Of a DNA stretch of 64,000 nt, positions 1 through 29,032 are shown one piece after another. The notes beneath the pieces were generated by a model, which did no database searches, was not told the DNA's origin, and saw only the letters and a program-made list of their open reading frames with translations. The translations under genes and the position numbers were made by a program. Source of the DNA: Deltaproteobacteria bacterium (GTDB taxonomy: Bacteria > Desulfobacterota > Desulfarculia > Desulfarculales > Desulfarculaceae); assembly GCA_021811275.1 (NCBI GenBank), contig JAJZPI010000003.1, positions 1 through 64,000 of the forward strand. The letters run 5' to 3'. Every line of letters begins with the position of its first letter. The stretch's first letter is position 1.

Positions 1-213
1 CAACAGGTAGCGGTCGCCATGGGGGATGACCGCCGCGTCGTCGCCGTAGTTGGCGAGCGCCGTTCCGCCCACCCCCTCCAGGACCAGCTCGCGGAAAACC
101 TCCGCGATGGGTCCCTTGCGGGTGAGGCCGGGGTAGGAGCGTATCCGGTTTACCAGAGTATCCAGGTCGTGTCGCAAGCTTCCCTCGCTGTTGATGGCCC
201 GCCGGATGCGCAA
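1..213 (-). CDS. AIR synthase-related protein, sll0787-like family (partial; C-terminus outside window)
   Basis: Manual minus-strand translation from a TTG at 213: ...INSEGSLRHDLDTLVNRIRSYPGLTRKGPIAEVFRELVLEGVGGTALANYGDDAAVIPHGDRYLL; the GDDAAVI motif is typical of PurM/AIR-synthase-like proteins. Lies downstream of the radical SAM-GNAT gene. Start codon uncertain. Confidence 0.6.
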   Translation of the reverse strand, partial: MRIRRAINSEGSLRHDLDTLVNRIRSYPGLTRKGPIAEVFRELVLEGVGGTALANYGDDAAVIPHGDRYLL

Positions 214-310: not shown

Positions 311-1843
311 TCATGCCTTGTCCAGGTTGGCGCTCATGAGCCGATGGGGTCTGCCACGGTAGTCGAAGGGCTCGCTCTCCACCCGCCAACCCAGCCTGCG
401 AAAGAATAGCACGTTGGGTTCCTGGATGTGGGCGGTGAAGCGCAGGCAGCCCTGGACCTTGGCCGTGCGGACCGCCTCCCGCACCAAGAGCTGGGCCGCC
501 CCGCTGGCCCGGGCGGTCTTGAGCACCGCCAGGCGGCCGCCGATCCAGTGCCCCTTGCCGTCAACGGGGAAGGTGCGCACCGTGCCCACGATGCGTCCTT
601 CCAGGCGCGCCACCAGATGCACGGCGCGGGAGTCGGCCTGGTCCAGGTCGGCATTCTCGAAGATGCCCTGCTCCTCCACGAAGACCCGGTGGCGTATCCT
701 TAGGGCCTGGGCCCGCTCCCCCAGGTTGCGCGCCTGGTGGCAGACCAGCGGGCGGGGTTCCTTTTCGTAGAAGGCCAGGGCCGAGCAAGCCCCGCAGCGC
801 ACGCAACCGGCCAGGCACTCGGCGGAGCGCAATCCCCGGGCGGCCAGGATGGCCGCCAAATCCTCATAGAGCCGGGCCATGCGCTCGGGGTCCGGCGGCG
901 GGCTGTCGGCCATGAGCGAGCCAGGTATGGGCCTGAGCGGCACCAGGAAGGGAAAGACCCCCAAGGAGGCCATGGCCTCCGCGCCCTCGAGCAGGCTCTC
1001 CTCCGGCTCGCCCAGCCCGGCCAGCAGGAAGCTTTCCACTTGACCGGGACCGAAGACCTCCACCGCCGCGCGCCAAGTCTCCAGGAAGCGGCGGCGGCCC
1101 AGGGCGGCCTTGGCCGGGGCCTGGCGGGCCAGCACCTCCCGGTCGTAGCACTCGATGTGGATGCCCACGGTGTCCGCCCCGGACCGCTTGAGTTTCTCCA
1201 GGGCCACTGGGTCCTCGGGGGGGGTGAGCTGGACGTGGACGGCCAGGTTCGACGCGTTTTTGACGGCTCGGGCGCAGCGGGCAAGATGGGCGACCTCGGC
1301 GCCTGGCTCGCCGGCGCAGCCGGTGGTGAGCACCACGTGGGTGACGCCGTCGTGGGCGGCGGCCCAGGCCGCCGCCTCGGCCAGGTCATCGGGCTCCTTG
1401 CGCGCCAGGGTCCCTCCCCCGGTCAGGGAAAGCTCGATGCCGCAGAAGCGGCAGCGCCGGCCCGAGGCCCAGTGGGCGCAAGTCTGCAGCACCGTGCTGG
1501 CCAGGCAGTCGGCCCCGTGCATCAGGGCCAGCTGGCGGAAGGGCATACCGGACTTGGTGCGTCGCTTGAGGAAGCCGGGCCGTGGGATCAACCCCACGGG
1601 CATGAGTTCCTGGCCGTGGCGTAGAAGTACGGCCTCGCCGCCTTCCGCGCGCAGCTCGTAGGGCGAGTTCGCCACGAAGGGGCTGGCCGTGGGCACGCTC
1701 AAGGCCCGTCCGCCCAGGACGATGGCCCCGCCCTCGGCCGGACCGGCTCCACCCCGGCGCGGGTCCAGGTCCAGGGCCACCTTGAGGCCCAGGCTTTGCA
1801 GCTCGGTGGCTATCCGCGCCGGATCGGGTTCCGCTACCCCCAT
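311..1843 (-). CDS. Radical SAM protein (MSMEG_0568-like) fused to C-terminal GNAT acetyltransferase (MSMEG_0567/sll0787-type)
   Basis: N-terminal half has QTCAHWASGRRCRFCGIELSL and CLAGCVRCGACSAL; C-terminal ~150 aa has RIRHRVFVEEQGIF...GTVRTFPVD...LLVREAVRTAKVQG typical of GNAT. Confidence 0.78.
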   Translation of the reverse strand: MGVAEPDPARIATELQSLGLKVALDLDPRRGGAGPAEGGAIVLGGRALSVPTASPFVANSPYELRAEGGEAVLLRHGQELMPVGLIPRPGFLKRRTKSGMPFRQLALMHGADCLASTVLQTCAHWASGRRCRFCGIELSLTGGGTLARKEPDDLAEAAAWAAAHDGVTHVVLTTGCAGEPGAEVAHLARCARAVKNASNLAVHVQLTPPEDPVALEKLKRSGADTVGIHIECYDREVLARQAPAKAALGRRRFLETWRAAVEVFGPGQVESFLLAGLGEPEESLLEGAEAMASLGVFPFLVPLRPIPGSLMADSPPPDPERMARLYEDLAAILAARGLRSAECLAGCVRCGACSALAFYEKEPRPLVCHQARNLGERAQALRIRHRVFVEEQGIFENADLDQADSRAVHLVARLEGRIVGTVRTFPVDGKGHWIGGRLAVLKTARASGAAQLLVREAVRTAKVQGCLRFTAHIQEPNVLFFRRLGWRVESEPFDYRGRPHRLMSANLDKA

Positions 1844-2430
1844 ATCTTGGCCGCCAGCTCGGACACCCGCCGGCCCAGGCCGCGGGCGGTGGTCAGGCCG
1901 AACTCGTCGACGGCCATTCCGCCGGGCCCGCCGCTGAAGCAGGTCCCGCCAAAGTGGCTGGTGGGCATGCCGTCGCCGACGATGATCATGTCCTGGGTGA
2001 GCATGGCCGCGTGTATGCCCTGGATGGCCAACTCCTGGCCGCCGTTGCGGAAGCCGCCCACGGCGATGACCCCGCCCACCCGGTCGCGCAGCCTGAAGCC
2101 GTTGCGGCGCAGGATCACGGCGCGGTCCAGGAAGGCCTTGGCCTGGGAGGTCATGCCCCCGAAGTAGACCGGGGTGGCCAGGATCAGCCCGGCCAGGCCC
2201 GGCGCGGTCAGCTCGCCCAAAAGGCCTGGAAAGTCGTCGGACTGGCTACAGGCCAGCCCCTTGGCGCAGTGGCCGCAGGCCAGGCAGCCGTTGATGTCCT
2301 TGTCGGCCAACTCGACCAGGCTGGTCTCCAGCCCGGGCACGGCTTGGCGCGCGGCCTCCAGGGCGGCCAGGAGCGCGAGAAAACTGCCCTGGCCCTGGCG
2401 GGGGCTGGCGCTGATGCCCAGAATCCTCAT
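1834..2430 (-). CDS. Flavodoxin-family / NADPH-dependent FMN reductase-like protein
   Basis: MRILGISASPRQGQGS...INGCLACGHC...ATPVYFGGMTSQAKAFLDR; FMN-binding SxxxxxS and PVYF signatures. Confidence 0.85.
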   Translation of the reverse strand: MRILGISASPRQGQGSFLALLAALEAARQAVPGLETSLVELADKDINGCLACGHCAKGLACSQSDDFPGLLGELTAPGLAGLILATPVYFGGMTSQAKAFLDRAVILRRNGFRLRDRVGGVIAVGGFRNGGQELAIQGIHAAMLTQDMIIVGDGMPTSHFGGTCFSGGPGGMAVDEFGLTTARGLGRRVSELAAKIWG

Positions 2431-2443
2431 GATGCCGTTCCTT

Positions 2444-3199
2444 TCATGCTTCTTCCTGCTGGTCCTTGAGCAGGTCCAGGATGCGTCGTCTGAGGGCGTT
2501 GCACTCGGGGCCGGTGCGGTCGCGGGGCCGGGGCAGTTCCACGGCCAGGCGTTGAACCAGGCGTGCCGGCCGGCGGGAGAGAATGAATATCTCGTCGCTC
2601 AAAAACACCGCCTCGTCTACGTTATGGGTGACGAAGAGCACGGTGTCGCGCCTTGTCTCCCATAGGCCCAGCAGGAACTCCTGCAGGCTGTTGCGGGTCT
2701 GGCTGTCCAGGGAGGCGAAGGGTTCGTCCATGAGCACCAGGGCGGGTTCGGTGATCAGGGTGCGGGCTATGGCCACCCGCTGCTGCATGCCGCCGGAAAG
2801 CTCATGGGGATAGCGGTCCTCGAAACCGGCCAGGCCGAAGGCCTTCACATATTCCAAGGCTCGCCGCCGGCGCTCGGCCGGGGCCACGCCCGCGATCTCC
2901 AGGCCCATCTCGATGTTGGCCCGGGCGGTGCGCCAAGGAAAGAGGGCGTAGTTTTGGAAGACCAGCCCCACCCGGCCCGGGGCGGGTGGGCGCCCGTCGA
3001 GCAGTACCTGGCCGGCGCTGGCCGGCTCCAGCCCGGCGATGACGCGCAGCAGCGTGGTCTTGCCGCAGCCGCTGGGGCCGATGAAGGTGACGAAGGAGCC
3101 CGGAGCGATCAAACAGTCCAGCCTGGCCAGCACCGCGACCCCGCCCGCGCCGCCTGCGCCGGTGAAGGTCTTGCCCAGCCCGTTGATGGTCAGGCTCAC
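2444..3199 (-). CDS. ABC transporter ATP-binding protein, SsuB/TauB/NrtD family
   Basis: Walker [10 protein letters not shown], signature [14 protein letters not shown], Walker [13 protein letters not shown]. Confidence 0.92.
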
Positions 3200-3960
3200 G
3201 AGCCCTGGCTCCAGGGCAGCAGGCGGCGCTCAAGCCGCCGCAGGCCGGCATCGATCAGAAGCCCGAGAGCCCCGATCACCGCCATGCCGGCCATGATGAG
3301 GTCTGGGCGCTGGATGTCGCGGGCGGTCATTATCATGTGACCCAGGCCATAGCCCGAGCGCACTCCGGCGAACTCGGCAGCCAACAAGGTCATCCAGCCG
3401 ATGCCCACGCCGATGCGCAGGCCCACGAACATGGCCGGGGCAGCCCCGGGCAAGAGCACCTTGAGCAGGATGTCGCGGCGGCCGGCCCCCAGGGTGCGCG
3501 CGGCCTCCAGCAGGATGGCGTTCACCGAGGTCACCCCGGCGACGGTGTTGAGCAGGATGGGGAAGAAGGCCCCCAGGAAGATGATGAAGGCGGCCGAGGA
3601 GGTGCCGATGCCGAACCAGAGGATGGAGATGGGTATCCAGGCTAGGGGCGGGACCGGCCGCACCAGTTCCACCATGGGGCGCAGGGCGGCGTGTAGCCGG
3701 GGGGCATAGCCCATGAGCAGGCCCAGCGGCAGGGCCAGGACCAGGGCCGCCGCGAAGCCCCAGGCCACCCGCAGGAGGCTGTGGGCGGCGTGCAGGTGCA
3801 GGAGCCTCCCCGGCGGCATGCCGGCCAGGGCCAGCTCCTTGAGCCCGGCCAGGATGGCCAAGGGCGAGGGCAGCAGATAGGGGGCCGCCAGGCCCAGTGA
3901 GCAGACCGCCTGCCAGGCCAGGAGCAGGCCGGCCAGGGGCGTGAGCCGCGCCAGCTTCAT
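3196..3960 (-). CDS. ABC transporter permease, SsuC/TauC family
   Basis: MKLARLTPLAGLLLAWQAVCSLG...EAARTLGAGRRDILLKVLLPGAAPAMFVGLRIG; EAA loop. Start trimmed from the ORF track to overlap the SBP stop. Confidence 0.88.
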   Translation of the reverse strand: MKLARLTPLAGLLLAWQAVCSLGLAAPYLLPSPLAILAGLKELALAGMPPGRLLHLHAAHSLLRVAWGFAAALVLALPLGLLMGYAPRLHAALRPMVELVRPVPPLAWIPISILWFGIGTSSAAFIIFLGAFFPILLNTVAGVTSVNAILLEAARTLGAGRRDILLKVLLPGAAPAMFVGLRIGVGIGWMTLLAAEFAGVRSGYGLGHMIMTARDIQRPDLIMAGMAVIGALGLLIDAGLRRLERRLLPWSQGS

Positions 3961-4952
3961 TTCCCCCGCGCCTGCTCGAGCAGTTCCGAATTCAAAAAGC
4001 TCTTCATGAAGGCGTCCACATCGCCGACCTTGATGTAGCCTAGGCGGTTGAGGAACTCCACGTAGTCCCGCTCGCCTTCCACGCTCAGCTCGGGAGTGTA
4101 CTTCACCCGCTTCATGGCCAGCCGCACCGTGGCTTCGTCCATGCCGGTGTATTTGACGCCGATGGCCAAAGCCTCCTCGGGCCGGGCGGCGATGAAGGCG
4201 TTGGCCTTCAAGTGGGCCCGCACCATGCCCAGGGCCTCTTCCCGGCGCTCGCGCAAAAAGTTCTCGTCGCAGGCCAGCACGCAGCAGGGATGGTCCTTCC
4301 ATATCTCGCCGGAGTCCATCAGGGGCTGCCCCACGCCCATGGTCTCGGCCTTGGCCGGGTGGGGCTGCCAGGCGATGAAGGCCTCGATCTGGCCCGTGCG
4401 CAGGGCCGAGATCATCTCGGGGGGCTTGATCACCATGATGTTCACCGACTGGGGATCGACCTTGGCCTGGGCCAGGGCTTTGCGCAGCAGGAAGTCCTGC
4501 ACGGTGGAAAAGCCGGGCACCGCCGCGCCTCGATTTTGGAGGTCGGCCACGCTTTTGACGGCCGAGCCCTTGCGCACCACCAGGGCCGAGCCCTCGGTGT
4601 TGACCTGGGCCAGAACCACCACCCGCGCGGCCAAGTTGGCCACGGCGGTGGTGGCCGGGGCCTCGCCCACGTAGCCAAGGTCCAGGGCGCGCGCGGAGAA
4701 GGCGCTCATCAGCTCGGGACCGGCCTTGAAGGCGCCTGCCACCTCGACCTTGACCCCTTCGGCTTGGTAGAGCCCCTTCTCAAGGGCCACCCAGCAGGCC
4801 AGATGGTGGATATCGCTTTGCAGATAGCCGATGCGCACGGCCGGGGCGGCCCAGGCCGGGACGGCCAGCGCCAGGGCCAGCAGTAAAGTCAGGGCCAGGG
4901 CAGCGTGCGCCCCGCGCGCGGTCGCCGGCCGAGGGCGGCTGGGTTCAGGCAT
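3957..4952 (-). CDS. ABC transporter substrate-binding protein, SsuA/NrtA/TauA-like
   Basis: Signal peptide then VRIGYLQSDIHHLACWVALEKGLYQAEGVKVEV; operon context with permease and ATPase. Confidence 0.88.
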   Translation of the reverse strand: MPEPSRPRPATARGAHAALALTLLLALALAVPAWAAPAVRIGYLQSDIHHLACWVALEKGLYQAEGVKVEVAGAFKAGPELMSAFSARALDLGYVGEAPATTAVANLAARVVVLAQVNTEGSALVVRKGSAVKSVADLQNRGAAVPGFSTVQDFLLRKALAQAKVDPQSVNIMVIKPPEMISALRTGQIEAFIAWQPHPAKAETMGVGQPLMDSGEIWKDHPCCVLACDENFLRERREEALGMVRAHLKANAFIAARPEEALAIGVKYTGMDEATVRLAMKRVKYTPELSVEGERDYVEFLNRLGYIKVGDVDAFMKSFLNSELLEQARGK

Positions 4953-5057
4953 GTCTTTCTCCCCTGGCGAGGGTGCGAAGAGCGCCGGCAGGGACCGGGG
5001 CCCACGCCGACCGTCTTTCCAATAATATAACGCCGGGCGGCCGGCGGGGAGGCCCCG

Positions 5058-6506
5058 CTATTTTTTGATGAGCGCGGCCTCCACCAGGGCGGTAAGGTCC
5101 CTGGCCACCAGAGGCGAGCCCAGGGCCCCGATGCCCACCTGCAAGCCCTGATAGCAGAAGGGGCAGCAGGAAACCAGCTCCTGCGCCCCGGTGGCCTCGG
5201 CCTCCCGGATGCGCGCCTGGGACATCTTGTTCTGGATGTCCGGGTAGCCGCTCTTGAGGCCGCCGCCGGCCCCGCAGCAGCGTGAGTACTGGCGGTTGCG
5301 GGGCATCTCGACGAGGTTAAGACCCTCGATGGCGGCCATGATGGCCCGGGGGGCGTCGTAAACCCCGGAGGCGCGGCCCAGGTGGCAGGGGTCGTGGTAG
5401 GTAACAGTGCGCTCCACCGGGTTGACTAACTTAAGCCGTCCTCCCTCCAGCAGGCGATGGAAGAACTCGGCGGTGTGCATCACCTCGAAGTTGAGCTTGC
5501 CCACCCGGGGGTAGTCTTCCTTGATGGTCTTGAAGCAGCCGGAGCAGGCGCTGATGAGGGTGTCGATGCCCAGGCCGTTGAACTGGGCGATGTTCTGACC
5601 GGCGATGCGCGCGAACTCGGGATCGCCCATGCGCAGCAGCACCGAGCCGCAGCAGCGCTCCTCGTTGCCCAGGATGCCGTAGTCGATGCCCAGGGCGGTC
5701 AAGATGTTGACCGTGCTCACCGCCACCTGGCGCACGTTGGCGTCGTAGGAGGCGGTGCAGCCGAAGAAGAGGAGGACCTTGCCCTTGGTCTTCTTGATCT
5801 CCGGTGGAGTGTCGGCGATGACCCCTTCCTTTTTGGCCCGGCGGGCCCACATGGCCCGGCTGGCCCGGGGCTGCTGCCAGGGGTTGTCGTAGGACTTGAC
5901 GCTCTTGACCAGGTTCTTCTGGGGCGGCAGCGGGCCATAGCCCGCCATGACCATGATGCGGCGGATTTCTTCCCACATACCCACGGTGTCCAGGTGGGCC
6001 GGGCAGACGATCTCGCACTGGCCACAGGTGGAGCACTCGTAAAGGTTTTTGGCGAACTCCTGGACCTGGTCCTCGGTGACCTGGCGGTGGCCCAGGAGCC
6101 GGGCCAGGGCCTGGCGCGCCCCGCCCTCGTCCTTGCCGGCCAGGCGGGCCAACACTCCGTGCTGGCCCTTGATGATGCGCAGGAAGTCGGCGGCCTTGCG
6201 GCGAGGCAGGATGTCCTCGCGCTGGTCCTGGTCCCAGACTGGGCACCAGTTCAGGCACTCGCCGCAGCGGGTGCAGCCGGTGAGCTGGACGATGCGCTTG
6301 GCGGCCAGGGCCTTGAGCGGCAGCTCGCGGGCGGTTGTTGGCCCTTGGGGCTCCTCGGGCGGGGGCGGTCCGCCCGCGGGGGCGGCGGCGGCCGGGGCTG
6401 GCGTCGAGCCGGGCGCTTCGGGGGCCGCGGGCGGGGCAGGGGCCTGCCCGGACGCCTCGGGCGGCGGGGCCGGTGTGCTTTCCGGGGTCTTGTTCTCGTC
6501 GCTCAT
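5058..6506 (-). CDS. HdrD/DsrK/GlcF-like (Fe-S)-binding CCG-domain protein
   Basis: Two 4Fe-4S motifs (CTRCGECLNWCP, CSTCGQCEIVCP) and two CCG domains (ERCCGS, YHDPCHLGR, SRCCGAGGG); Pro/Ala-rich N-terminus. Confidence 0.88.
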   Translation of the reverse strand: MSDENKTPESTPAPPPEASGQAPAPPAAPEAPGSTPAPAAAAPAGGPPPPEEPQGPTTARELPLKALAAKRIVQLTGCTRCGECLNWCPVWDQDQREDILPRRKAADFLRIIKGQHGVLARLAGKDEGGARQALARLLGHRQVTEDQVQEFAKNLYECSTCGQCEIVCPAHLDTVGMWEEIRRIMVMAGYGPLPPQKNLVKSVKSYDNPWQQPRASRAMWARRAKKEGVIADTPPEIKKTKGKVLLFFGCTASYDANVRQVAVSTVNILTALGIDYGILGNEERCCGSVLLRMGDPEFARIAGQNIAQFNGLGIDTLISACSGCFKTIKEDYPRVGKLNFEVMHTAEFFHRLLEGGRLKLVNPVERTVTYHDPCHLGRASGVYDAPRAIMAAIEGLNLVEMPRNRQYSRCCGAGGGLKSGYPDIQNKMSQARIREAEATGAQELVSCCPFCYQGLQVGIGALGSPLVARDLTALVEAALIKK

Positions 6507-6547
6507 GGCACCGTCCTCATTATTGTCTCCCCCTCACCCGGCCTTAT

Positions 6548-6635
6548 GAACACGCTGGCAAGCTCCAACGGGAGCTGACATGGCTGGCCTGGGCACAGCG
6601 CCAACCGACCCGCTCCGGTCGCCGGGGCGCCCGGC
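6548..6635 (-). repeat. Dispersed hairpin repeat directly after the heptaheme-NarI gene stop
   Basis: 6605-6635 reverse complement GCCGGGCGCCCCGGCGACCGGAGCGGGTCGG then GTTGGCGCTGTGCCC...AGCTCCCGTTGGAGC; two bases after the TAG at 6638-6640. Confidence 0.65.
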
Positions 6636-6637
6636 CC

Positions 6638-8086
6638 CTACGCTCTCTCCCGGTTGAGCAGCAGGCTCAAGGGGGCGGAGAACACGTGGCGCATCTTCCC
6701 GAAGGGGATGTAGGCCACCAGCAGGGCGGCGGTGAGGGCATGGGCCCACCACAGCCAACCGTAGGCCTTAGCCCAGGTCTCGGGCGCGCCGCCCAGCCCC
6801 AAGGCCAGGGGCCAGGCCACGAAGGACCAGGCCGCCTGGTCGGCGGGCAGGGCGCTGGTGAGAAGCCGGGCGGCCTCCAGCACGAAGCCCAGGGCGGCCA
6901 TGACCCCCAGCAGGGCCAGGGCCAGGGCGTCCTGGCCCTCGGTGCGCACGTGCTTGGGCCTGACGAAAAGCCGCTGCCCGGCGGCCAGCAGCACCCCCAG
7001 GAGCATGAACAGGCCCAAAAGGTCGTTGAAGGCCGCCACGAAGGGCTGGTTCTTGTCCATGAGGGCCAGGGCCAGGGAGCTGGCCGGCCACATCTGGACC
7101 ACCAGCCAGGTGAAAAGGCCCAGGGTCATGCGCATGAGCAGCGAGAGGTAGATAAGCGAGTGGAAGAACCAGCGCCGCACGCTCTCCTGCAGCAGCCGCC
7201 GCTGCAATATGATGTCGAAGAAGATCACGCCCAGAACACGGGCGAAGCGGCGGGAGAAGATCGTGCTCCAGACGCTCTCGGCGCCCTGGGCGAGCTTCTC
7301 ATGGGCCGAACCGGTTTGGCCGGCCACCTCGCCCTGGAACCAGAAGCGGATAAGAGCCGCCATGCCGGCCAGGAAGATCAGCAGCGCCAGTCCGAACCAG
7401 CCCGAGCCCAGGCCGAAACTGGCGGGGTGGCAGAGGAAACAGATCGCGCCCTTGGCCGGCAAAACCATGGCCGGGGCGTTGACAGCGTTGCCGGCGACGT
7501 GGCAACGGGCGCAGAGGGCCTCGTCCTTGAGATCGGGAGAGGCGTGGTCGGCCAGGCTCAAGGGCGCGCCCTTGGCGTCCATCCGGGCCAGGGCCACTCG
7601 GCCCGTGCTCACCTCGCGCGTGACCAGGGCCGACTTGTGGTGGCAGGCCTCGCAGCGCACGGTGAGATGCGGATCATGGACCGTTGAGCCTTCCTGGTGG
7701 GGCAGGTGGCAGGACCGGCAGCTCACGCCCTCGACGGCCTTGTGTGGGGAGCGGGCCACGTCGATGTGGCACTGCTGGCAGGCGACGACCTGGTGGCGGC
7801 TCCCGGCGAAGCCGTTGGGGTCCACCCACAGGGGGACCTGGACGCCGCCGCGCTCGACCAAGCATTGTTTCTGGCCGTGGCACTCGTTGCAAAAGGCGCG
7901 GGCGGCCAGGGCGCCTTCGGTGGTTTCCAGGTTGGGGGCGCGGTGGCAATCCAGGCACAGGCGAGCGTCCAGGCCCTTCAGCGGCGGAGCCATGGCCACG
8001 GGCGGGGCGGCCAAGGCGGTCGGGACCAGGGCGGCCAGCAGCCAGAGAGCGGCCAAGGCCAGGAGGGCGGCGAGGCGTTTGATCAT
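6638..8086 (-). CDS. Heptaheme cytochrome c domain fused to NarI/HdrE-like membrane cytochrome b domain
   Basis: MIKRLAALLALAALWLL signal; seven CXXCH (CLDCH, CNECH, CQQCH, CRSCH, CEACH, CARCH, CFLCH) followed by a multi-TM region. Start overlaps the preceding stop (ATGA). Confidence 0.85.
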   Translation of the reverse strand: MIKRLAALLALAALWLLAALVPTALAAPPVAMAPPLKGLDARLCLDCHRAPNLETTEGALAARAFCNECHGQKQCLVERGGVQVPLWVDPNGFAGSRHQVVACQQCHIDVARSPHKAVEGVSCRSCHLPHQEGSTVHDPHLTVRCEACHHKSALVTREVSTGRVALARMDAKGAPLSLADHASPDLKDEALCARCHVAGNAVNAPAMVLPAKGAICFLCHPASFGLGSGWFGLALLIFLAGMAALIRFWFQGEVAGQTGSAHEKLAQGAESVWSTIFSRRFARVLGVIFFDIILQRRLLQESVRRWFFHSLIYLSLLMRMTLGLFTWLVVQMWPASSLALALMDKNQPFVAAFNDLLGLFMLLGVLLAAGQRLFVRPKHVRTEGQDALALALLGVMAALGFVLEAARLLTSALPADQAAWSFVAWPLALGLGGAPETWAKAYGWLWWAHALTAALLVAYIPFGKMRHVFSAPLSLLLNRERA

Positions 8087-8760
8087 GATGCGCGCTCCTC
8101 GCTGGCCCGGCCGTTGAATATGCTTTTCTCCACAGGGAACACGCCCGGCCGCAGGTGGGCCGTAAACATGTGCACCACGATCTTGACCGCCACCGCCAGG
8201 ATGGCTTCGTAGAGGTGCAGGATCAGCGCCAGGTTGATCAGCCAGCCGGGCATGAAGCGGGCGAAGAACTCCGGGAACCACAGCAGCAGACCGGTGGCCC
8301 CCATGGTGTGCATGCCCACCAGCACCGCCCAGTAGTCGAGCTTCTCCCAATAGGAGAAGCGCCCGAAGGCCGGTTCGCCCCCGCGGGCGAAGAAGTACTT
8401 GAGATGCGCGGCCAAGTCCTTGAAGTCGCGGCCGGCGGGGAACATGGTGCCCGGCCCGGTCAGCCGGCCCTTCAGGAGCAGCTTGTAGTAGGCCAGCCAG
8501 CAGAGGTGGATGAAGACCGCGCCGTAGGTGAGCACGGCGAAGCCGCGGTGCCAGGAGCCCAGGCCCGATGCGCCCCCGAAGATCCAGGCCACGGCTTGGG
8601 CCCAGCCCTGGTCGCCGAATTTGAGCGAGAAGCCGGTCAGAGCCAGGCCGGTGAAGCCCACCATCACCGCCACGTGCAGCAGGCGGCTCAGGACCGAGAA
8701 GCGCATGGGCGCGGCGGATTTTTTCTCCGGGCCGGCCGAAGTGGCTTGGGTCTGGCTCAT
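8083..8760 (-). CDS. Cytochrome b561/formate dehydrogenase gamma-like membrane subunit
   Basis: MRFSVLSRLLHVAVMVGFTGLALTGFSLKF...HRGFAVLTYGAVFIHL...LHLYEAILAVAVKIVVHMF; His-containing TM helices. Confidence 0.85.
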   Translation of the reverse strand: MSQTQATSAGPEKKSAAPMRFSVLSRLLHVAVMVGFTGLALTGFSLKFGDQGWAQAVAWIFGGASGLGSWHRGFAVLTYGAVFIHLCWLAYYKLLLKGRLTGPGTMFPAGRDFKDLAAHLKYFFARGGEPAFGRFSYWEKLDYWAVLVGMHTMGATGLLLWFPEFFARFMPGWLINLALILHLYEAILAVAVKIVVHMFTAHLRPGVFPVEKSIFNGRASEERAS

Positions 8761-9662
8761 TGGCCGCGCCTCCTGATCTTGTGGTGCAGGTCCCTGAGCA
8801 GCCAGATGAAGCTGTGGCCCCAGAAGAAAGCCACCATTAGCCCGACCACCACCGCCATCAGAATGGTCACCGCCCGGATAACCGCCACCCGCTTAGCCTT
8901 CTCGGGCTGGTCGGCGGGCTTTTCCGGGGCCTGGGGGTGGATCACGAACTGGGCGAAGGAGGGGCCGGCCTGGGGGTGGCAACGCTGGCAGGCGGCCAAG
9001 GCGGCCTGGGGCTCCTTGAGGCTCAAGGCGGCGTGCCCGCCGTGGCAGTCGCTGCAGAAGGCGGCCTTGGCGTGGCCGAGGGCGAAGGCGGCCTGGCCGT
9101 GGTAGCCCTCCAGGTAGGTCGCCAGCTGGCGGGGGTGGCAGGAGCCGCAAACCTCGGTGGCGCGCCGTCCCACGGTCAGGCGGTCCTGGTGCGAGGCCTG
9201 GTAGTGGGGGTCATGGCAGTAGCCGCAATTGGGGGCCGGAGCCTGGCCCGAGGCCAGGGCCTTGCCCGTTTGCTCCCGGGCCGCCTTGGCGTGGGCCCCG
9301 GTCTGCATGCGCTCGAAGGCCAGGTGGTGGCACTGGGCGCAGACGGCGTAGTCAAAGGCCTGGCGCACCGGATTTTTTAGATAGGACTTGTCTTTGGGAT
9401 CGGGATGGCGCAGATCGGAGCCCGGGGCCAGGGCCTGGGTTTCCTTGGCGTGGCAGGACTGGCAGGCCAGGGTGCCGTGGGCGCCGGCGGCATAGGCCTT
9501 GAGGTCCAGGTGCCAGGACGAGCCCTGCACGCCCCATGGGGGGGGCGCAGCGAAGGGAAGGCTTTCCGTGGCCGCCGCGGCCAGGGCAGGGGCGCAGACC
9601 ACCAGGAGCGTAGCCAGGGTCCAGGCCGCGGCCTTGGCCAGGGATGATTTTCGCGCGGGCAA
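8757..9662 (-). CDS. Hexaheme cytochrome c with C-terminal membrane anchor
   Basis: Signal peptide; six CXXCH (CQSCH, CAQCH, CGYCH, CGSCH, CSDCH, CQRCH); C-terminal TM VIRAVTILMAVVVGLMVAFFWG. Confidence 0.88.
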   Translation of the reverse strand: MPARKSSLAKAAAWTLATLLVVCAPALAAAATESLPFAAPPPWGVQGSSWHLDLKAYAAGAHGTLACQSCHAKETQALAPGSDLRHPDPKDKSYLKNPVRQAFDYAVCAQCHHLAFERMQTGAHAKAAREQTGKALASGQAPAPNCGYCHDPHYQASHQDRLTVGRRATEVCGSCHPRQLATYLEGYHGQAAFALGHAKAAFCSDCHGGHAALSLKEPQAALAACQRCHPQAGPSFAQFVIHPQAPEKPADQPEKAKRVAVIRAVTILMAVVVGLMVAFFWGHSFIWLLRDLHHKIRRRGQ

Positions 9663-9682
9663 CGCTATCCTCCTTCGCTGCC

Positions 9683-11005
9683 TCAGTGCGGCCGCGAGAT
9701 GCCGCCCCGGGGCCCGCGGGCGGCGAAGTGCAGGGTGAGCAGGCCCACGCAGGCCCGCTTGATCTGGTCGAAGAGGCGGTTGGCCTGCCCGGTGGTGTCG
9801 CGGCCCGGGTCTGGCGAATCTTCAAGGGCGCGCCGCAACCCACGCAGGCCGGCGGTGATCTCTTGCCAGCCCTCGCCCAGGGCCAGGGATTCTTCCGGCG
9901 CGAGCGGCAAGGCGGAGGCCCGCTCCAAGGCCGGCACCCGCCGCCAGGCCGCCTCCAGGAAGACCCGGAACTTGGCCGGCTCATAGACCTTGGCCCCGAT
10001 GCGCCAACGCACGGGATGGTCCTCCAGCCCGGCGGCCACGATGCGGCTGTTGCTGACCTCACGCCTCAATTGGCGGGCCAGGCCGCGCACGGCCTCGCCC
10101 GCCAGCCAGGAGGGGGGCGAGGCTGGGGGGGAGGCCGGCGGGCCGTCGGGAAGGTCGTGGGTCAGGGCTTCGGCCATCAGCCGGTTGGCCTCGGCGAAGC
10201 CGGGGTGCTCCAGATGCGGGCCGTAGAGATGTAGCCAGCCCGCGCCCAGGGGGGCGCGCAGGGCGGCGGCCCGGCCCAGCAGGGTGGCCTCGGCCAGCTC
10301 GCGGGGAGCCAAAAAGCGGGTGCGCGGGTGGAAATCGGCGTAGGTGGCCATGGCCAGGCAGGGGTCGTCGGGGAGCATGGCCGGGCCGCCGTAAAGCGGG
10401 GCCGCGAAGCGTCCGCCCCCGCTCCAGGGTCCCTCCTCCGCCGGGGCCAGCCATACCGCCTCGCGCACAGGGTGGAAGACGTGGGCGCAGCCGTAGGGGG
10501 TGCTGAACTTCTCGGCCAGCATGAGCGGCTGGGGCAGTTCCCTGGCCAGGTTGCTGATGCGGGCCTGCACGAAGTTGAAAAGGTTGAGGGGCGCTTTGGA
10601 TGAGCGCAGGCAGAGGTAGGCCCCGGCGCAGGAGCCCAGGTAGAGCCCGCCGGAGCGCACGAAGGATTCTATGGCCTCAGCGCCCTCGGGCCCCAGGGCC
10701 CCGGCCAGGGCGAAGGCGTCGCCGCCGCTGACGGCCAGGGCGTCGAGCCCGGCCAGGCCGCCGGAGGCCACGCCCTTCTCGTCCAGGAAACAAAGGTCGT
10801 CAAGCCCCAGGCGCTCGAAGGAGTCCACCATCCACAGCCAGGAATGAGATGCCCCCCCGCCGCAGTAGATACCCAGGCGAGGCCGCCGGGGGAGCGCCGC
10901 GAGGGCGCTTCCAACGACCGGCCCCGCCTGGGTGGGGGGGCTGGGTGAGGAGCCCGAGGCCGGCCGGGGGCGGGCGGGCGGGCGGGGGTCGGGGCTGGGC
11001 AGCAC
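9683..11005 (-). CDS. BPL_N-domain (glutamine amidotransferase class I-like) protein
   Basis: RLGIYCGGGASHSWLWMVDSFERLGL...LAVSGGDAFALAGAL...SGGLYLGSCAGAYLCL, a nucleophile-elbow GSCAGAY typical of BPL_N proteins. Start set at GTG 11005 preceded by AAGGAAA; alternative starts possible. Confidence 0.75.
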   Translation of the reverse strand: MLPSPDPRPPARPRPASGSSPSPPTQAGPVVGSALAALPRRPRLGIYCGGGASHSWLWMVDSFERLGLDDLCFLDEKGVASGGLAGLDALAVSGGDAFALAGALGPEGAEAIESFVRSGGLYLGSCAGAYLCLRSSKAPLNLFNFVQARISNLARELPQPLMLAEKFSTPYGCAHVFHPVREAVWLAPAEEGPWSGGGRFAAPLYGGPAMLPDDPCLAMATYADFHPRTRFLAPRELAEATLLGRAAALRAPLGAGWLHLYGPHLEHPGFAEANRLMAEALTHDLPDGPPASPPASPPSWLAGEAVRGLARQLRREVSNSRIVAAGLEDHPVRWRIGAKVYEPAKFRVFLEAAWRRVPALERASALPLAPEESLALGEGWQEITAGLRGLRRALEDSPDPGRDTTGQANRLFDQIKRACVGLLTLHFAARGPRGGISRPH

Positions 11006-11031
11006 TTGGCTTTCCTTGCCGGGCGACGGCG

Positions 11032-12336
11032 TCAGCCCGCCAGCCCGCTCAAGACCTGCTCCAGGGTTGCGGGCGCGATGGAAAGCCCCGCGCCCACTTC
11101 GGCCAGCTCGATGAGCTTGGCCTCGTCGATCTGGGGCGACATCAGGGCGAAGACCGGGTCCAGGCCGAAGACGTAGGCCAGGGCCATGCGCCGCCGCCAC
11201 CACTCCGGCCCGCCCTGGCCGAAGTCGGCGAAGGCCGCCTTGTCCGGCGCGCAGGGGCTGAAGGGCCCGGCCGGGCCGGAGGCCGGCGCGTCGCCGGCGG
11301 ACATGAGCCCTCGCACCCCGGCGGCGTCCTTCACGCCACCGGCGGCGGCCAGCTCCGCCAGACCGGCGGCGTCCAGGCCGGCCTTGGCGCAGTCCCTGAT
11401 GATGGCGCAGGCCTCCTTGGCGTCCAGGCCCAGCTTCATCAGGCTTAAGGGCGCGTCCAGGTCGGTGAGCAGCACGCCCGGCTCGGGCGCGGCCGGCTCC
11501 TTGAGCTCCTTGGGGTCGCCTTCCAGGAAGACGAAGGTGTTGGCGGCAAACGGGGTGTTGAAGCCGGCCCGGTGACGGTGGGCCAGGGGGGCCAGCCAGG
11601 CGGCGAAGTCCGCTTCGCCCAGGCCGGCGGCCAGGTCCATGAGCCCCTTCTTGCCGGCCCAGCCTCCGCTTTTCAGCTCGCCCAACAGCCCCACGCAGGC
11701 GGCGACGTAGGCCTCGGGGTCGTTGATCTCGATCAGCCCCATGCCGCGCAGCGCTACGAGCTTGACGTTCTTGGCGGCCAGGGCCGAGCCCAGGCCGAAG
11801 CGGTCGCCGCTGGCCCAGAAGTTGATCATGACCTGACCCAGGGGTGAGCCGGCCACCGCGGCGGGCCCGGCCACCAGGGTCTGGATCAACTCGTCGCCCA
11901 TGGCCTTGCGGACTTCCTGGGTCGCGGTCCAGACATCGGCGTTCCATATCTCGGCGGCGGGCTCGATGTCGGCGATGCCGTCGTGGACCCAGAGGTAGAC
12001 CGGCTCGGCGGAACGGCCCTTGATCACGATGTAGTCGAAGCCGGAGTACTTGATCTCCAGGCCGGCGTATAGGGTCAAGGGCGCATGGGCCAGGGCCCCG
12101 GTGCGCGGGCTCTTGCCGCTGATGAGTCCCAGGGAGGAGCCGGACAGGAGGGTGCCGGTCAACAGGCCGGCTCCCAGCACCAGGGGGTCGCCCTCCTCGT
12201 GCTCGGCGTAGAGGGCTTGGGCCACGGCCGCGCCGCCGATGCGGCTGTTCAAAAGCTCTTCGGACAGGGGCAGTTCCTCGACGCTGCCAGTGGCCAGGTC
12301 GATGACCGCTATTTTATCGGAGGCCAGGTATGGCAT
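11032..12336 (-). CDS. Aldehyde:ferredoxin oxidoreductase (AOR)-like protein, short and divergent
   Basis: IAVIDLATGSVEELPLSEELLNSRIGGAAVAQAL...LTGTLLSGSSLGLISGKSPRTGALAHAPL...SGFDYIVIKGRSAEPVYLWV matches the AOR N-terminal domain pattern; C-terminal half is compressed. Confidence 0.8.
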   Translation of the reverse strand: MPYLASDKIAVIDLATGSVEELPLSEELLNSRIGGAAVAQALYAEHEEGDPLVLGAGLLTGTLLSGSSLGLISGKSPRTGALAHAPLTLYAGLEIKYSGFDYIVIKGRSAEPVYLWVHDGIADIEPAAEIWNADVWTATQEVRKAMGDELIQTLVAGPAAVAGSPLGQVMINFWASGDRFGLGSALAAKNVKLVALRGMGLIEINDPEAYVAACVGLLGELKSGGWAGKKGLMDLAAGLGEADFAAWLAPLAHRHRAGFNTPFAANTFVFLEGDPKELKEPAAPEPGVLLTDLDAPLSLMKLGLDAKEACAIIRDCAKAGLDAAGLAELAAAGGVKDAAGVRGLMSAGDAPASGPAGPFSPCAPDKAAFADFGQGGPEWWRRRMALAYVFGLDPVFALMSPQIDEAKLIELAEVGAGLSIAPATLEQVLSGLAG

Positions 12337-12352
12337 TTTGCAGCTCCTCCCT

Positions 12353-12706
12353 CTAACCCTGGTAGATGGCGTCGACCGGGCAGACCGTCTGGCATAGCGG
12401 ACCGCCCTCGCGGTCGGCGCAGAGGTCGCAGGGCTCGCGCAGCAGCATGGGCTTGGCCGAGGCGTCCGCTTCGCCTTGGTCCTCCTCCACGGCCCCGATG
12501 CGCTTGACCTCCAGGCCCTCGGGGCGGGCGATGACCAGGGTGTCCTCCTCCTTGAGCACTACGCCGAAGTAGTCCTTCAGCTCACGGGCGCGGTAGGCGA
12601 TGATGCAGGCCGAGAGCAGGGCGAAGGCGTCGTCGCGGTGGTAGCCGCAGGCCAGCTCGCAGGCCATGCAGGCCGTGCATTTGCCGGGGTCGATCTTGAT
12701 TCCCAT
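12353..12706 (-). CDS. 4Fe-4S ferredoxin (AOR-associated electron transfer type)
   Basis: MGIKIDPGKCTACMACELACGYH...CDLCADREGGPLCQTVCPVDAI. Start ATG at 12706. Confidence 0.88.
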   Translation of the reverse strand: MGIKIDPGKCTACMACELACGYHRDDAFALLSACIIAYRARELKDYFGVVLKEEDTLVIARPEGLEVKRIGAVEEDQGEADASAKPMLLREPCDLCADREGGPLCQTVCPVDAIYQG

Positions 12707-13188: not shown

Positions 13189-14094
13189 ATGTTTGAGACC
13201 GCTAGCAAAAACGAAAAGGTCTCCGACCGCATCATCGAGCAGATCCGCGACGCCGTGCTCTCCGGCCGTCTAAAGCCCGGCGACCGCCTGGCCTCGGAAA
13301 AAGAACTGATCCTGGAATTCGGGGTGAGTAAGGCCACCATGCGCGAGGCCCTGCGCGTTCTGGAGGTGCTGGGCCTGGTGGAGATCAGGAAGGGCATCCA
13401 GGGAGGGGTCTTCATCGCCGAGGTGGACATGCGGACCACCATCCACAGCATGATGAACTTCCTCCACTTCAAGTCGGTGAGCGTGCGCGACATCACCATG
13501 CTGCGTTTCATGATGGAGCCCTCGGTGGCCTACCTGGCCGCCCAGCGTCTGGGGCGGGAGGACGCCCTGCGCATCGAGCAGATGATCGAAAAGGGCGAGG
13601 AGTACGATGCCGACGCCCCGGACGGCGACATAGGTTTCCACCGCTACCTGGCCCGGCTGACCGACAATCCCTTCCTCATCCTGATCATGGACTACATCGA
13701 GAACATGCTTCGGGATCTGAAGAGCCACCTCAAGCTGGGCGCCGATTTCCACGAGCACGTGCGGGAGTTCCACCGCGAGATCCTGGAATACCTGAAGCAG
13801 GGCGACTGCCTGGGGGCCTGCCGGGCCGTGACCAACGACCTGCTCTGGGTGGGCGACTACCTGGCCGAGCAAACCGGCACCCCCCGCTTCGACCCCGCCG
13901 TCATGGGCTACGACGAGCGCATGCGCAAGTCCCTGGTGGTCGGCGCCGGCTCCCCGCCCCCGGCCGGACTGGAATTGAACCAGGCCCTGGCCCAAGGCGG
14001 GCTTTTGCTCCGGCAGGTCGGCTCCGGCGATATTTATATGATAGTGCCCCACGACAAGGAGAAAGACCGGCCCGCGCCCCCGGCGGAGCCATGA
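13189..14094 (+). CDS. FadR/GntR-family transcriptional regulator (FCD type)
   Basis: IIEQIRDAVLSGRLKPGDRLASEKELILEFGVSKATMREALRVLEVLGLVEIRKGIQGGVFI wHTH followed by an all-helical ligand domain. Confidence 0.92.
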   Translation: MFETASKNEKVSDRIIEQIRDAVLSGRLKPGDRLASEKELILEFGVSKATMREALRVLEVLGLVEIRKGIQGGVFIAEVDMRTTIHSMMNFLHFKSVSVRDITMLRFMMEPSVAYLAAQRLGREDALRIEQMIEKGEEYDADAPDGDIGFHRYLARLTDNPFLILIMDYIENMLRDLKSHLKLGADFHEHVREFHREILEYLKQGDCLGACRAVTNDLLWVGDYLAEQTGTPRFDPAVMGYDERMRKSLVVGAGSPPPAGLELNQALAQGGLLLRQVGSGDIYMIVPHDKEKDRPAPPAEP

Positions 14095-14217
14095 GACGCG
14101 CCCTGAACCGCGCCGCCGGCCATGCCTCACGCGCGGAGGCCTGATAATCGGAGAGTGCGCAGGGCCGCAAGGCCGCGCAACCCAAAAGCGAGACGAAGCA
14201 CCCAAGGAGTTCGGAAA

Positions 14218-15828
14218 ATGAGCGATAGCCCAAAGGATAGATATTTTTTCGAGGACCCGAGCCTGGCCGCCGACCCCATAAGCGGCAAGCCGCCGGTGAA
14301 GCTCAAGTACCACGCGGGGGGCCAGTGGAAGACCTCCCAGACCGCCAAGTACATGCCCTGCTACAACGCCTCCACCGGCGCGGTGATCGCCCTGGCCCCC
14401 CAGTGCTCCAGGGACGAGGTGGAAGAGGCCATCCAGGCTGCGGTGGCGGCCTTCCCCAAATGGTCCACCACCCCGGTCTCCAAGCGGGTGCAGGTGCTGT
14501 TCAGGATGAAGCAGCTCTTGGACGAGCATCTGGATGAACTGACCGTGCTTTTGGCCACGGAGAACGGAAAAAAATACGACGAGGCCATGGGCGACATCTT
14601 GAAGGTCACCGAGGTGGTGGAGTTCGCCTGCGGCGCGCCGCACCTGATGAAGGGCGAGTCTCTGATGCAGGTGTCGACCGGTTATGACACCGTCCTTTAT
14701 CGCGAGCCGGTGGGCGTATTCGCCGGCATACCGCCCTGGAACTTCCCGGCCATGATCCCCCACGGCTGGATGACTCCCATCTGCATCGCCACCGGTAACT
14801 GCATGGTCCTCAAGGCCGCCAGTTTCGTGCCCCAGTCGGCCATGCGGGTCATGGAGCTCTGGAAGGAGGCCGGCATCCCCGACGGCGTGATCAACGTGGT
14901 CACCGCCGGCCGTAGCGAGGCCGAGATATTCCTGAGCCACCCGGACATCAAGGGCGTCACCTTCGTGGGCTCAACCAAGGTGGGCCTGCACATCTACACC
15001 ACCGCCGCCGCCAACGGCAAGCGCGTGCAGGCCCTCTGCGAGGCCAAGAACCACGCCCTGGTGCTCAAGGACTGCAAGCTGGAGCGCACCGCCGCCGGCA
15101 TCATCAACGCCTTCTGCGGCTGCGCCGGCGAGCGCTGCATGGCCCTGCCCACGGTGGTGGTCGAGGAGGCCATCGCCGACCAGCTGGTGGAGCTGCTCAA
15201 GAAAAACGCTCTGGAGGTCAACCTGGGCCCGGCCTGGGAAAAGAAAACCGGCATGGGCCCGGTGGTCAACGAGGGTCACAAGGCCTTCGTGGAGAGCTGG
15301 ATCGCCAAGGGCATTGAGGAAGGCGCCAAGGTGGTCCTGGACGGCCGCAACCCCAAGGTGCCGGCCGGCTGCGAGAAGGGCTTCTTCATCGGCCCCACCA
15401 TCCTGGATCACATAACCGAGGACATGTCCGTGGGCCGCGAGGAGGTCTTCGGCCCGGTGCTGTGCATCAAGAGGGTCAAGAATTTCGAGGAAGGCCTGAC
15501 CATCATGAACAACAGCCGCTTCGCCAACGGCTCGGTGATCTACACCCAGAACGGCTACTACGCCCGTCAGTTCGCTCACCGCACCCACGCCGGCATGGTG
15601 GGCGTCAACGTGGGCATCCCGGTGCCCCTGGGAATTTTCGGCTTCACCGGCCACAAGCAGTCCTTCTTCGGCGACCTGCACGTGATGGGCAAGGACGGCT
15701 TCGCCTTCTTCACCGAGAGCAAGAACGTCACCAGCACCTGGTTCCCGGAGGAAGGCAAGACCTCGGCCAAGGTGGACACCTGGGACGGGACCATCACCTC
15801 GTTGCCCAAGGAATGCTGTCGCGATTAA
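14218..15828 (+). CDS. Aldehyde dehydrogenase, methylmalonate-semialdehyde dehydrogenase (MmsA)-like
   Basis: GVFAGIPPWNFPAMIPHGWMTPICIATGN, GSTKVG, NAFCGCAGERCMAL active-site Cys, EEVFGPVL. Confidence 0.9.
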   Translation: MSDSPKDRYFFEDPSLAADPISGKPPVKLKYHAGGQWKTSQTAKYMPCYNASTGAVIALAPQCSRDEVEEAIQAAVAAFPKWSTTPVSKRVQVLFRMKQLLDEHLDELTVLLATENGKKYDEAMGDILKVTEVVEFACGAPHLMKGESLMQVSTGYDTVLYREPVGVFAGIPPWNFPAMIPHGWMTPICIATGNCMVLKAASFVPQSAMRVMELWKEAGIPDGVINVVTAGRSEAEIFLSHPDIKGVTFVGSTKVGLHIYTTAAANGKRVQALCEAKNHALVLKDCKLERTAAGIINAFCGCAGERCMALPTVVVEEAIADQLVELLKKNALEVNLGPAWEKKTGMGPVVNEGHKAFVESWIAKGIEEGAKVVLDGRNPKVPAGCEKGFFIGPTILDHITEDMSVGREEVFGPVLCIKRVKNFEEGLTIMNNSRFANGSVIYTQNGYYARQFAHRTHAGMVGVNVGIPVPLGIFGFTGHKQSFFGDLHVMGKDGFAFFTESKNVTSTWFPEEGKTSAKVDTWDGTITSLPKECCRD

Positions 15829-15868: not shown

Positions 15869-16388
15869 ACAAGGCTTGTCACGCACGTGCGGAGGGTGGG
15901 ATACGGCCAGTGCCATCGGCTAGAGGCCATAGCGAGCGAACCGGGGCGGGGAAGCAAACCCCGAGACCAAGCGCCCCGTCGCCCAGGCTGCTCAATCACG
16001 ATAGCCGCCTCCCTCTTCCTCTTCGCATCCAAGCGCTATTTGGCACAATCTCTCCCCGCTCCTCACGCTCCCCTCTCATTCTCCCCGCTGCGCATCCTCA
16101 CTCTGAGCCTCACGCGCCATCTGCTCTCGCTTACGCCGCACCAAGTAATGAAGCATGTCCCCCGGGTCCGCGCCTAGCCGCGCCGTCCCTGGATATGAGG
16201 CCGAAGTCCCAGACTCCCGACCGGGGAGGCTGGGCCGGTCCAGAGCAGCAGCAGGGCTAACCGCCAGCGGTTAGGCCCTGTTTTTTTGCCGGAAGCGCCC
16301 CGCCCAGGGCCCGCGCCTCCGCCTGGCCGGCGGCGGACGGGCCGGGACGCCCCGAATGGTGTCTGCCGCAAGGAGGAAGGATTTAGAT

Positions 16389-20481: not shown

Positions 20482-20586
20482 GGACGGTTCGCAGAAGCAT
20501 AGCTGACAACAGGGGAGGGGCGTCCGGGCCCGCGGGCCCGGAGCCTCCCCCCGCCAAGGCAACGGCCAAGGGACGAAGAGGCGACG

Positions 20587-21462: not shown

Positions 21463-21463
21463 C

Positions 21464-22465: not shown

Positions 22466-22472
22466 GGGTGCC

Positions 22473-23243: not shown

Positions 23244-23280
23244 GCGATTCCACCAGGCCGCGTAGAGAGGCGGAGGAAGC

Positions 23281-25016: not shown

Positions 25017-25090
25017 GGCGCTGGGCCTCGGGAAGATCGGATGGAACCATAAACCATGAGACACTTCAACTTCAGCAAAGGTTGCAGATC

Positions 25091-26146: not shown

Positions 26147-26187
26147 TGAGCAGGCTTTGGGCCGAATAGCTGCGGAGGAAAAGGGAA

Positions 26188-26865: not shown

Positions 26866-26943
26866 GCCGGCAAGCAGCACAAGGCCAACGAAGGCGAAAG
26901 GGCCCGCTCCCTGGGGCGGGCCCCCCACCCACGGAGCTTGCAG

Positions 26944-29019: not shown

Positions 29020-29032
29020 GGGGGCTTTAGCC

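Follow-up and report, generated by a model that had tools for sequence, protein, structure and literature searches.

A seven-gene core and its conservation

The window analysed here is a 64,000-nucleotide stretch, part of contig C184 of a 3.95 Mb, 97.9% complete genome from an uncultured bacterium related to sulfate reducers, and its nearest named relatives by the BPL_N protein are Desulfarculaceae. We focused on seven minus-strand genes at 5058-12706, which a preliminary description had delimited as a membrane redox module. All seven are open and collinear and carry the domains named for them. The operon's first gene encodes a ferredoxin of 117 amino acids with two [4Fe-4S] motifs (12353-12706). 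It is followed by an AOR-like protein of 434 amino acids, here called pseudo-AOR (11032-12336), whose sole Pfam match is AFOR_N (PF02730; 1.8e-39, 136 bits), and by a BPL_N protein of 440 amino acids with a GTG start (9683-11005; PF09825, 6e-7). The next three genes encode a hexahaem c-type cytochrome with a TTG start, six CXXCH motifs and a C-terminal anchor (8757-9662), a cytochrome b of the Ni_hydr_CYTB/b561 family (8083-8760; PF01292, 3.7e-12), and a heptahaem c-type domain with seven CXXCH motifs fused to a NarI/HdrE-type cytochrome b (6638-8086; PF02665, 2.8e-8). The last encodes an HdrD-like iron-sulfur protein with two intact CCG domains (5058-6506; PF02754, 1.2e-33). By coordinate, the junctions measure 16, 26, 20, -4, -4 and 131 bp in order, with the 131 bp preceding the HdrD-like gene, in agreement with the short or overlapping junctions and final gap of about 130 bp described earlier. 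The limits given to the module proved too narrow, since an importer, radical-SAM, GNAT and AIR-synthase-like (AIRS) genes, and a divergent operon all lie outside them. A larger conserved operon has the seven genes at its centre, and the conserved unit covers about 311-12706 on the minus strand together with the divergent operon from 13189.

Orthologues of BPL_N (41-58% identity) were found in 10 of 98 relatives, with gene order kept in the six that have fuller loci. The same order occurs in six family or class relatives at 42-81% identity. Eleven aligned BPL_N orthologues, used to scan named genomes, yielded 115 loci, 80 of which were retained. The scan was seeded on BPL_N, which places AOR-like proteins without BPL_N outside its scope; many of the loci are contig fragments from metagenome-assembled genomes (MAGs), and certain MAG labels are doubtful. 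Most retained loci belong to Desulfobacterota, and others come from Actinomycetota, Schekmanbacteria, Methanofastidiosia, Theionarchaea and one Methanomicrobia MAG. The neighbours of BPL_N were counted in named loci with enough flanking sequence. An HdrD-like gene adjoins it in 42 of 44 such loci and a b-type cytochrome in 35 of 44, whereas the counts for AOR-like and ferredoxin genes are 51 of 61 and 49 of 61. All nine loci lacking the cytochrome come from Actinomycetota, archaea and Schekmanbacteria. An initial labelling of the window as having no AOR or no cytochrome b, and of some loci as missing cytochrome b, was an artefact of overlapping long open reading frames (ORFs), and the genes are present.

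A profile search of 394 genomes of the phylum detected BPL_N orthologues in 28 genomes and 23 of 248 genera. Inspection of 20 of those 28 genomes gave four new loci (L141, L143, L146 and L153), all of which keep the arrangement. As controls, we considered five BPL_N paralogues (~32-36% identity) from the same family of genomes, and none had an AOR, cytochrome or HdrD neighbour. A BPL_N search of viral contigs returned no match. Because the order recurs in six relatives and in named loci of several phyla, we conclude that the arrangement is not due to chance. The gene-neighbourhood check proposed in the preliminary description has been run, and it finds a neighbourhood that is not unique to this genome, with AOR/BPL_N co-conserved with cytochromes. 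Cultured carriers are Desulfospira joergensenii DSM 10085 and Desulfatitalea alkaliphila M08but, with a variant in Desulfosarcina cetonica, and they make expression and purification tests possible.

Two side observations concern these loci. One 7169-base contig is present in both an Anaerolineales (Chloro_02) and a Syntrophobacterales (Delta_01) MAG, as loci L056 and L057; one of the two is a binning error. Desulfarculaceae-type genomes also carry a second, distant BPL_N (G000:C11:16703-17782, in L031 and L043, and also in L044, L045 and L047), which has ABC ATPases within ~6 kb in three other genomes and a differing context.

Soluble proteins and exchangeable electron modules

The AlphaFold model of the pseudo-AOR (predicted local distance difference test score, pLDDT, 94.6) matches whole tungsten AORs with Foldseek TM-scores of 0.81-0.83 (9mqx and 1aor; 0.83 to 1aor). 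By sequence the N-terminal domain alone is detected, and domains 2 and 3 are shortened. The window protein has G, T and A at the cysteine positions of the CX2CX3C motif and D at the distal, domain-3 cysteine. The protein had been called Cys-less, which holds for the Fe-S ligand cysteines but not for the whole chain, in which four other, non-ligand cysteines remain. Across 51 relatives, all three motif cysteines are kept in 8, the first alone in 25, the second alone in 2 and none in 16. Actinomycetota, archaea, L107/L110 and L124 retain the distal cysteine; in the remaining Desulfobacterota its place is mostly taken by His, Asp or Gln. The pterin-anchoring Asp of the distal DXXG(L/I/M)C motif is absent from 12 of 12 aligned family members and present, by alignment, in four full-length AORs of the window's own genome. 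A first regular-expression search had suggested that BamB-like AORs also lack DXXGLC, and the alignment corrected this to DALGMC/DALGFC. Because the [4Fe-4S] and pterin-anchoring residues are gone, the AOR-like protein is probably not a tungstoenzyme. Uneven cysteine retention together with the absence of the Asp suggests that the ancestor probably had the [4Fe-4S] site, which was lost more than once, and that the tungsten site was probably lost across the whole family. With these residues missing, the protein is unlikely to feed in electrons by its own catalysis, although an input role had been suggested; it would most likely be a binding scaffold. The neighbouring ferredoxin is fully conserved at its clusters, with all eight cysteines 100% conserved in 62 homologues.

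The Cys126-His264-Glu266 triad of BPL_N does not vary across 63 bacterial and archaeal sequences, and the protein's model (pLDDT 90.8) has a class-I glutamine-amidotransferase fold, with Foldseek matches to GuaA-A, PdxT and HisH and a conserved helical C-terminal extension after the fold. Triad and predicted fold suggest that BPL_N is probably a catalytic protein of the amidotransferase/amidase type, more than a regulator alone, and that it may hydrolyse or transfer amide nitrogen.

The hexahaem cytochrome has a signal peptide-like N-terminus and a transmembrane-like stretch at residues 259-277, and six haem motifs are found in 39 of 40 homologues. The heptahaem fusion has structure matches to NarI (2e-4). 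In the HdrD-like protein, the cluster cysteines are 97-100% conserved in 71 homologues, the best NCBIfam match is TfrB (219 bits), and the HdrD/TfrB superfamily pattern is complete, with PF02754 in two stretches, two CCG motifs and 4Fe-4S domains. A haem label ("[1h]") beside HdrD was rejected, as it is really the CCPFCH of the CCG motif; one of the "[2h]" labels in the Rieske/b-complex variants is a true cytochrome c domain.

These electron-transfer genes vary among loci while ferredoxin, AOR and BPL_N persist. The window type is six-haem cytochrome, cytochrome b, seven-haem-NarI and HdrD. Variants comprise NarI-Rieske-petB-petD-cytochrome c with HdrD, NarI-HdrD, HdrA-HdrD in Actinomycetota, HdrC-HdrB-HdrA-MvhD-FdhB-FdhA in archaea, and NrfC-NrfD-MoCo-pentahaem-NarI-HdrD in L110, where the NrfC, NrfD, MoCo and Rieske/b subunit names were read from the sequences with no profile search behind them. 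On the BPL_N tree, the electron-module labels need 18 changes and are more clustered than in shuffles, with many of the 18 stemming from "unknown" loci that are cut short.

This exchange bears on whether the window encodes an ordinary additional Tmc/DsrMK-like complex, which would reduce DsrC or some other disulfide in the cytoplasm and whose soluble neighbours would be there by accident or have a loose relation to it. The intact CCG motifs, the NarI/HdrD pairing seen in DsrMK and HdrED, and the multihaem cytochrome with HdrD as in Tmc and Hmc are all consistent with such a complex. The soluble genes, however, persist in cytochrome-less Actinomycetota and archaea, and the TmcB, HmcF and DsrK scores are all far below cut-off. 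Conservation already disfavours this explanation, and we consider it quite improbable.

Exchange also bears on electron direction. The order proposed in the preliminary description ran from AOR/BPL_N through ferredoxin and HdrD to the haems. The swapped modules are of quinol, cytochrome c and formate dehydrogenase-HdrABC types and make delivery in reverse at least as likely. Because the donors implied by these modules are quinol, cytochrome c and formate, we prefer electron delivery to the soluble unit.

The wider unit and its divergent operon

The minus strand continues with an importer, consisting of an SsuA/NMT1-type substrate-binding protein (3957-4952; PF13379, 1.3e-39, syntenic), a TauC/SaoP-like ABC permease (3196-4002) and a SaoA/TauB-like ABC ATPase (2444-3199). 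We rejected its assignment as an organometal SAO system (SaoX/SaoA/SaoP), as every score was well under cut-off. An FMN reductase-like flavoprotein (k19; 1834-2430) was assigned to PF03358 via its homologue in L081. It is followed by an MSMEG_0568 radical SAM protein fused to an MSMEG_0567 GNAT protein, of the Nit1C NitD-NitE type (311-1843), and both parts score above their cut-offs (TIGR04043, 347.9 against 303.7 bits; TIGR04045, 116.3 against 68.45 bits). The N-terminal end of an AIR-synthase-like gene (1-165, minus strand) is cut at the contig end. The start of contig C191 carries nearly the whole of this gene (C191:5-943) and is near-identical to this end of C184, with two differences across the final 60 bases. 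The near-identity of the C184 and C191 ends suggests that the gene is split over two contigs by strain variation at an assembly break. In this genome the AIR-synthase-like gene scores 299.7 bits with the NitF model TIGR04049 (cut-off 321.3). Within the conserved unit, radical SAM and GNAT genes were counted in 23-25 loci and AIRS in 17, and three loci have a gene for a DsrE protein immediately ahead of the radical SAM gene.

The presence of these enzymes raises the question of whether the soluble genes serve assembly or maturation, with pseudo-AOR, BPL_N, radical SAM, GNAT and AIRS making or inserting a cofactor for the cytochrome/HdrD complex or for methyltransferases. The AIRS-like proteins are similar to methanogenesis marker 2, HypE and SelD, the radical SAM protein resembles BioB/HmdB-type synthases, and catalytically dead enzyme relatives are often scaffolds. 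A dedicated importer within the unit does not fit this role, and the soluble genes remain constant even as the HdrD complex itself is swapped from locus to locus. We therefore regard a maturation function as unlikely.

Several further observations were made around these genes. Downstream of AIRS on contig C191, sequence inspection revealed two ORFs of the CobO-like ATP:corrinoid adenosyltransferase type (L134:1624-2882). In bacterial loci L104 (2898-3839) and L103 (11218-12195), an AIRS-like gene lies directly after BPL_N and resembles methanogenesis marker 2; the L104 protein scores 211 bits with that model, below the cut-off of 365. Cluster k14 (L074:15740-16462 and 13 other loci) is a ~240-amino-acid protein encoded between HdrD and the binding protein; it has no Pfam or NCBIfam match, invariant Cys, Trp and His residues, and a CXXC near its C-terminus. 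Four Actinomycetota loci (L111, L113, L114 and L123) combine the unit with methylmalonyl-CoA-mutase-type genes, MeaB and an SDR, and encode a protein like methanogenesis marker Mmp4/MtxX (145 bits, cut-off 190).

The divergent operon lies on the plus strand and begins with a GntR/FCD regulator of the PdhR/LldR/GlcC class (13189-14094), which stands beside the unit in 33 of 59 loci. The motif TGCA-N5-TGCA was considered as an operator between the GntR and ferredoxin genes, with an enrichment of 14/36 vs 0.6. It falls inside the ferredoxin coding sequence, at cysteine codons, so we conclude that the enrichment is an artefact. After the regulator come a methylmalonate-semialdehyde-dehydrogenase-type aldehyde dehydrogenase (14122-15828; TIGR01722, 525 bits), a FAD-linked oxidase of the GlcD/D-LDH/vanillyl-alcohol-oxidase superfamily (k5; 16356-17828; 38 of 53 loci) and its partner HdrD2, a second HdrD/TfrB-like CCG protein (17844-19172). 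A syntenic LIV/urea-type ABC transporter follows, with a binding protein, two permeases and two ATPases (19294-24018, the last ORF at 23281-24018). Next comes a corrinoid methyltransferase set at 24060-30055, with an MtrH-like protein (from 24060), a UroD-like protein (25082), a corrinoid protein (26188), a RACo-type activator (26938) and an MtaA/UroD-like protein (29033). Genes of the divergent operon are syntenic across several genera. The corrinoid set is syntenic in L137, L138 and L139, and MtaA relatives lie near HdrD2 in ~13 further loci. Methanofastidiosal loci have the FAD oxidase and HdrD2 genes in one operon with ferredoxin, directly upstream of it.

This gene content could be explained by oxidative catabolism, in which the divergent operon would demethylate and oxidise an imported methoxylated or hydroxylated compound, the electrons would leave through the HdrD-cytochrome complex for periplasmic cytochromes, and ferredoxin, pseudo-AOR and BPL_N would mediate or regulate the hand-over. 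In most loci the FAD oxidase and HdrD2 are neighbours of the unit, which in archaea they directly precede within one operon, the regulator is of the PdhR/LldR/GlcC class, and the MtrH/UroD/corrinoid/RACo set, syntenic in three other genomes, is like the MtoABCD operon (PMC8630106). Other loci, however, have BPL_N, NarI, HdrD, importer and radical SAM genes without the FAD oxidase, the archaeal swap to FdhAB-HdrABC indicates a donor rather than an acceptor, and the amidotransferase triad and radical-SAM/AIRS genes are left unexplained. The oxidative reading, which draws on the genes for FAD oxidase, aldehyde dehydrogenase and O-demethylase, is a possibility that we hold to be doubtful.

A proposed function and comparison with known systems

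Our favoured explanation, to which we assign a probability of roughly 40%, is that an Hdr/Tmc-type conduit delivers electrons to a soluble ferredoxin/pseudo-AOR/BPL_N unit that handles a nitrogen-bearing substrate. It starts from the observed gene content, conservation, folds, gains and losses of motifs, and module exchange, and it proposes complex formation, an electron direction, a substrate and an activity for BPL_N. BPL_N would be the constant element, usually with ferredoxin and the AOR-fold protein. In HdrED and DsrMK, NarI/HdrE-type cytochromes and HdrD carry electrons from quinol or cytochromes to acceptors in the cytoplasm. The HdrD-like protein, the NarI/HdrE-type cytochrome b and the 13 c-type haems could likewise exchange electrons between membrane or periplasm and the soluble unit, as in HdrED, DsrMK and Tmc. 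Electrons would pass from a donor pool (periplasmic cytochrome c or quinol, and in archaea formate via HdrABC) to HdrD, to ferredoxin and into pseudo-AOR/BPL_N chemistry. Because radical SAM, GNAT and AIRS genes occur together with an amidotransferase fold, we take a small nitrogen-bearing molecule of the amide or nitrile type as the probable substrate. It would enter through the SsuABC-type transporter, and the radical-SAM, GNAT and AIR-synthase-like proteins would share in its processing.

Several findings weigh against this explanation. BPL_N proteins elsewhere sit in unrelated contexts, and ferredoxin-AOR is absent from 10 of 61 loci, about a sixth, so the pair is not essential to BPL_N. 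The loss of AOR ligands is lineage-specific, with 8 of 51 proteins retaining all three motif cysteines. The importer was not seen nearby in some archaeal loci, and the divergent FAD oxidase, HdrD2 and aldehyde dehydrogenase would equally suit an oxidative pathway with outward electrons.

More tentatively, and as a suggestion that we ourselves rate as doubtful, the unit could be a redox-driven amidotransferase/amidase machine with interchangeable electron modules, forming an anaerobic Nit1C counterpart in bacteria and archaea. One conserved unit joins HdrD-type membrane complexes, AOR relatives without metal sites and the Nit1C radical-SAM/GNAT/AIRS core, all of which are poorly understood. A redox-coupled nitrogen-chemistry system, if true, would extend anaerobic energy metabolism by one type of reaction and offer a first clue to what is formed or degraded by the Nit1C enzymes.

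The Nit1C cluster (NitB-H) functions in cyanide and nitrile assimilation, and radical SAM, GNAT and AIRS are three of its genes (PMC1199592, PMC11049912). The unit shares with it the MSMEG_0568 radical SAM, the MSMEG_0567 GNAT and, in three loci, DsrE, whose fold is close to the YchN-like assignment of the first Nit1C gene; it also has a candidate sll0787-type AIR synthase. It differs in having BPL_N, the importer and the electron-transfer complex in place of nitrilase and NitH. We found no CN_hydrolase on contig C184, recognised no nitrilase among the inspected ORF clusters of the loci, and saw no NitH flavoprotein in the loci. The divergent operon resembles the Mto/Mtv systems, of which MtoABCD is an O-demethylation operon, in encoding MtrH-like, two UroD/MtaA-like, corrinoid and RACo proteins together, and differs in adding a LIV-type ABC transporter and the FAD oxidase, HdrD2 and aldehyde dehydrogenase genes.

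Compared with the tungsten AOR family (AOR, BamB and WOR), the pseudo-AOR shares the whole fold, AFOR_N and a neighbouring ferredoxin gene, but it is ~170 residues shorter, the three Fe-S and the domain-3 cysteines are gone, and the distal pterin-anchoring Asp is missing from every family sequence inspected. The class II benzoyl-CoA reductase Bam (BamBC with BamD/E/F) has AOR-family, ferredoxin, HdrD-like, HdrA-like and MvhD-like parts. The unit likewise combines an AOR-family protein, ferredoxin and an HdrD-like protein, in archaea and Actinomycetota also with HdrA- and MvhD-like proteins. In contrast to Bam, it is without an intact tungsten site and has BPL_N and membrane cytochromes, and the window's genome has separate BamB-like AORs with CX2CPX2C intact.

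The cytochrome/HdrD genes had been likened to Tmc, Hmc and Dsr complexes, and they are indeed of the general HdrED/DsrMK/Tmc type. An HdrD-like CCG protein, a NarI/HdrE-type cytochrome b and a multihaem cytochrome c are shared with HdrED, DsrMK, Tmc and Hmc. The scores set the window apart from Tmc (TmcB 95.8 vs a cut-off of 735 bits; TmcC 15.6 vs 240), Hmc (HmcF 61.9 vs 750) and DsrMKJOP (DsrK 80.5 vs 400). So does its composition, a hexahaem cytochrome, a cytochrome b561-type protein and a heptahaem-NarI fusion, with ferredoxin, pseudo-AOR, BPL_N and an importer. The combination of ferredoxin, pseudo-AOR and BPL_N with an electron complex was already thought unfamiliar, and we found no description of it in the papers searched, which take in few subscription journals. 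We place the unit among the HdrD-type membrane complexes, as a variant that adds an undescribed set of soluble partners.

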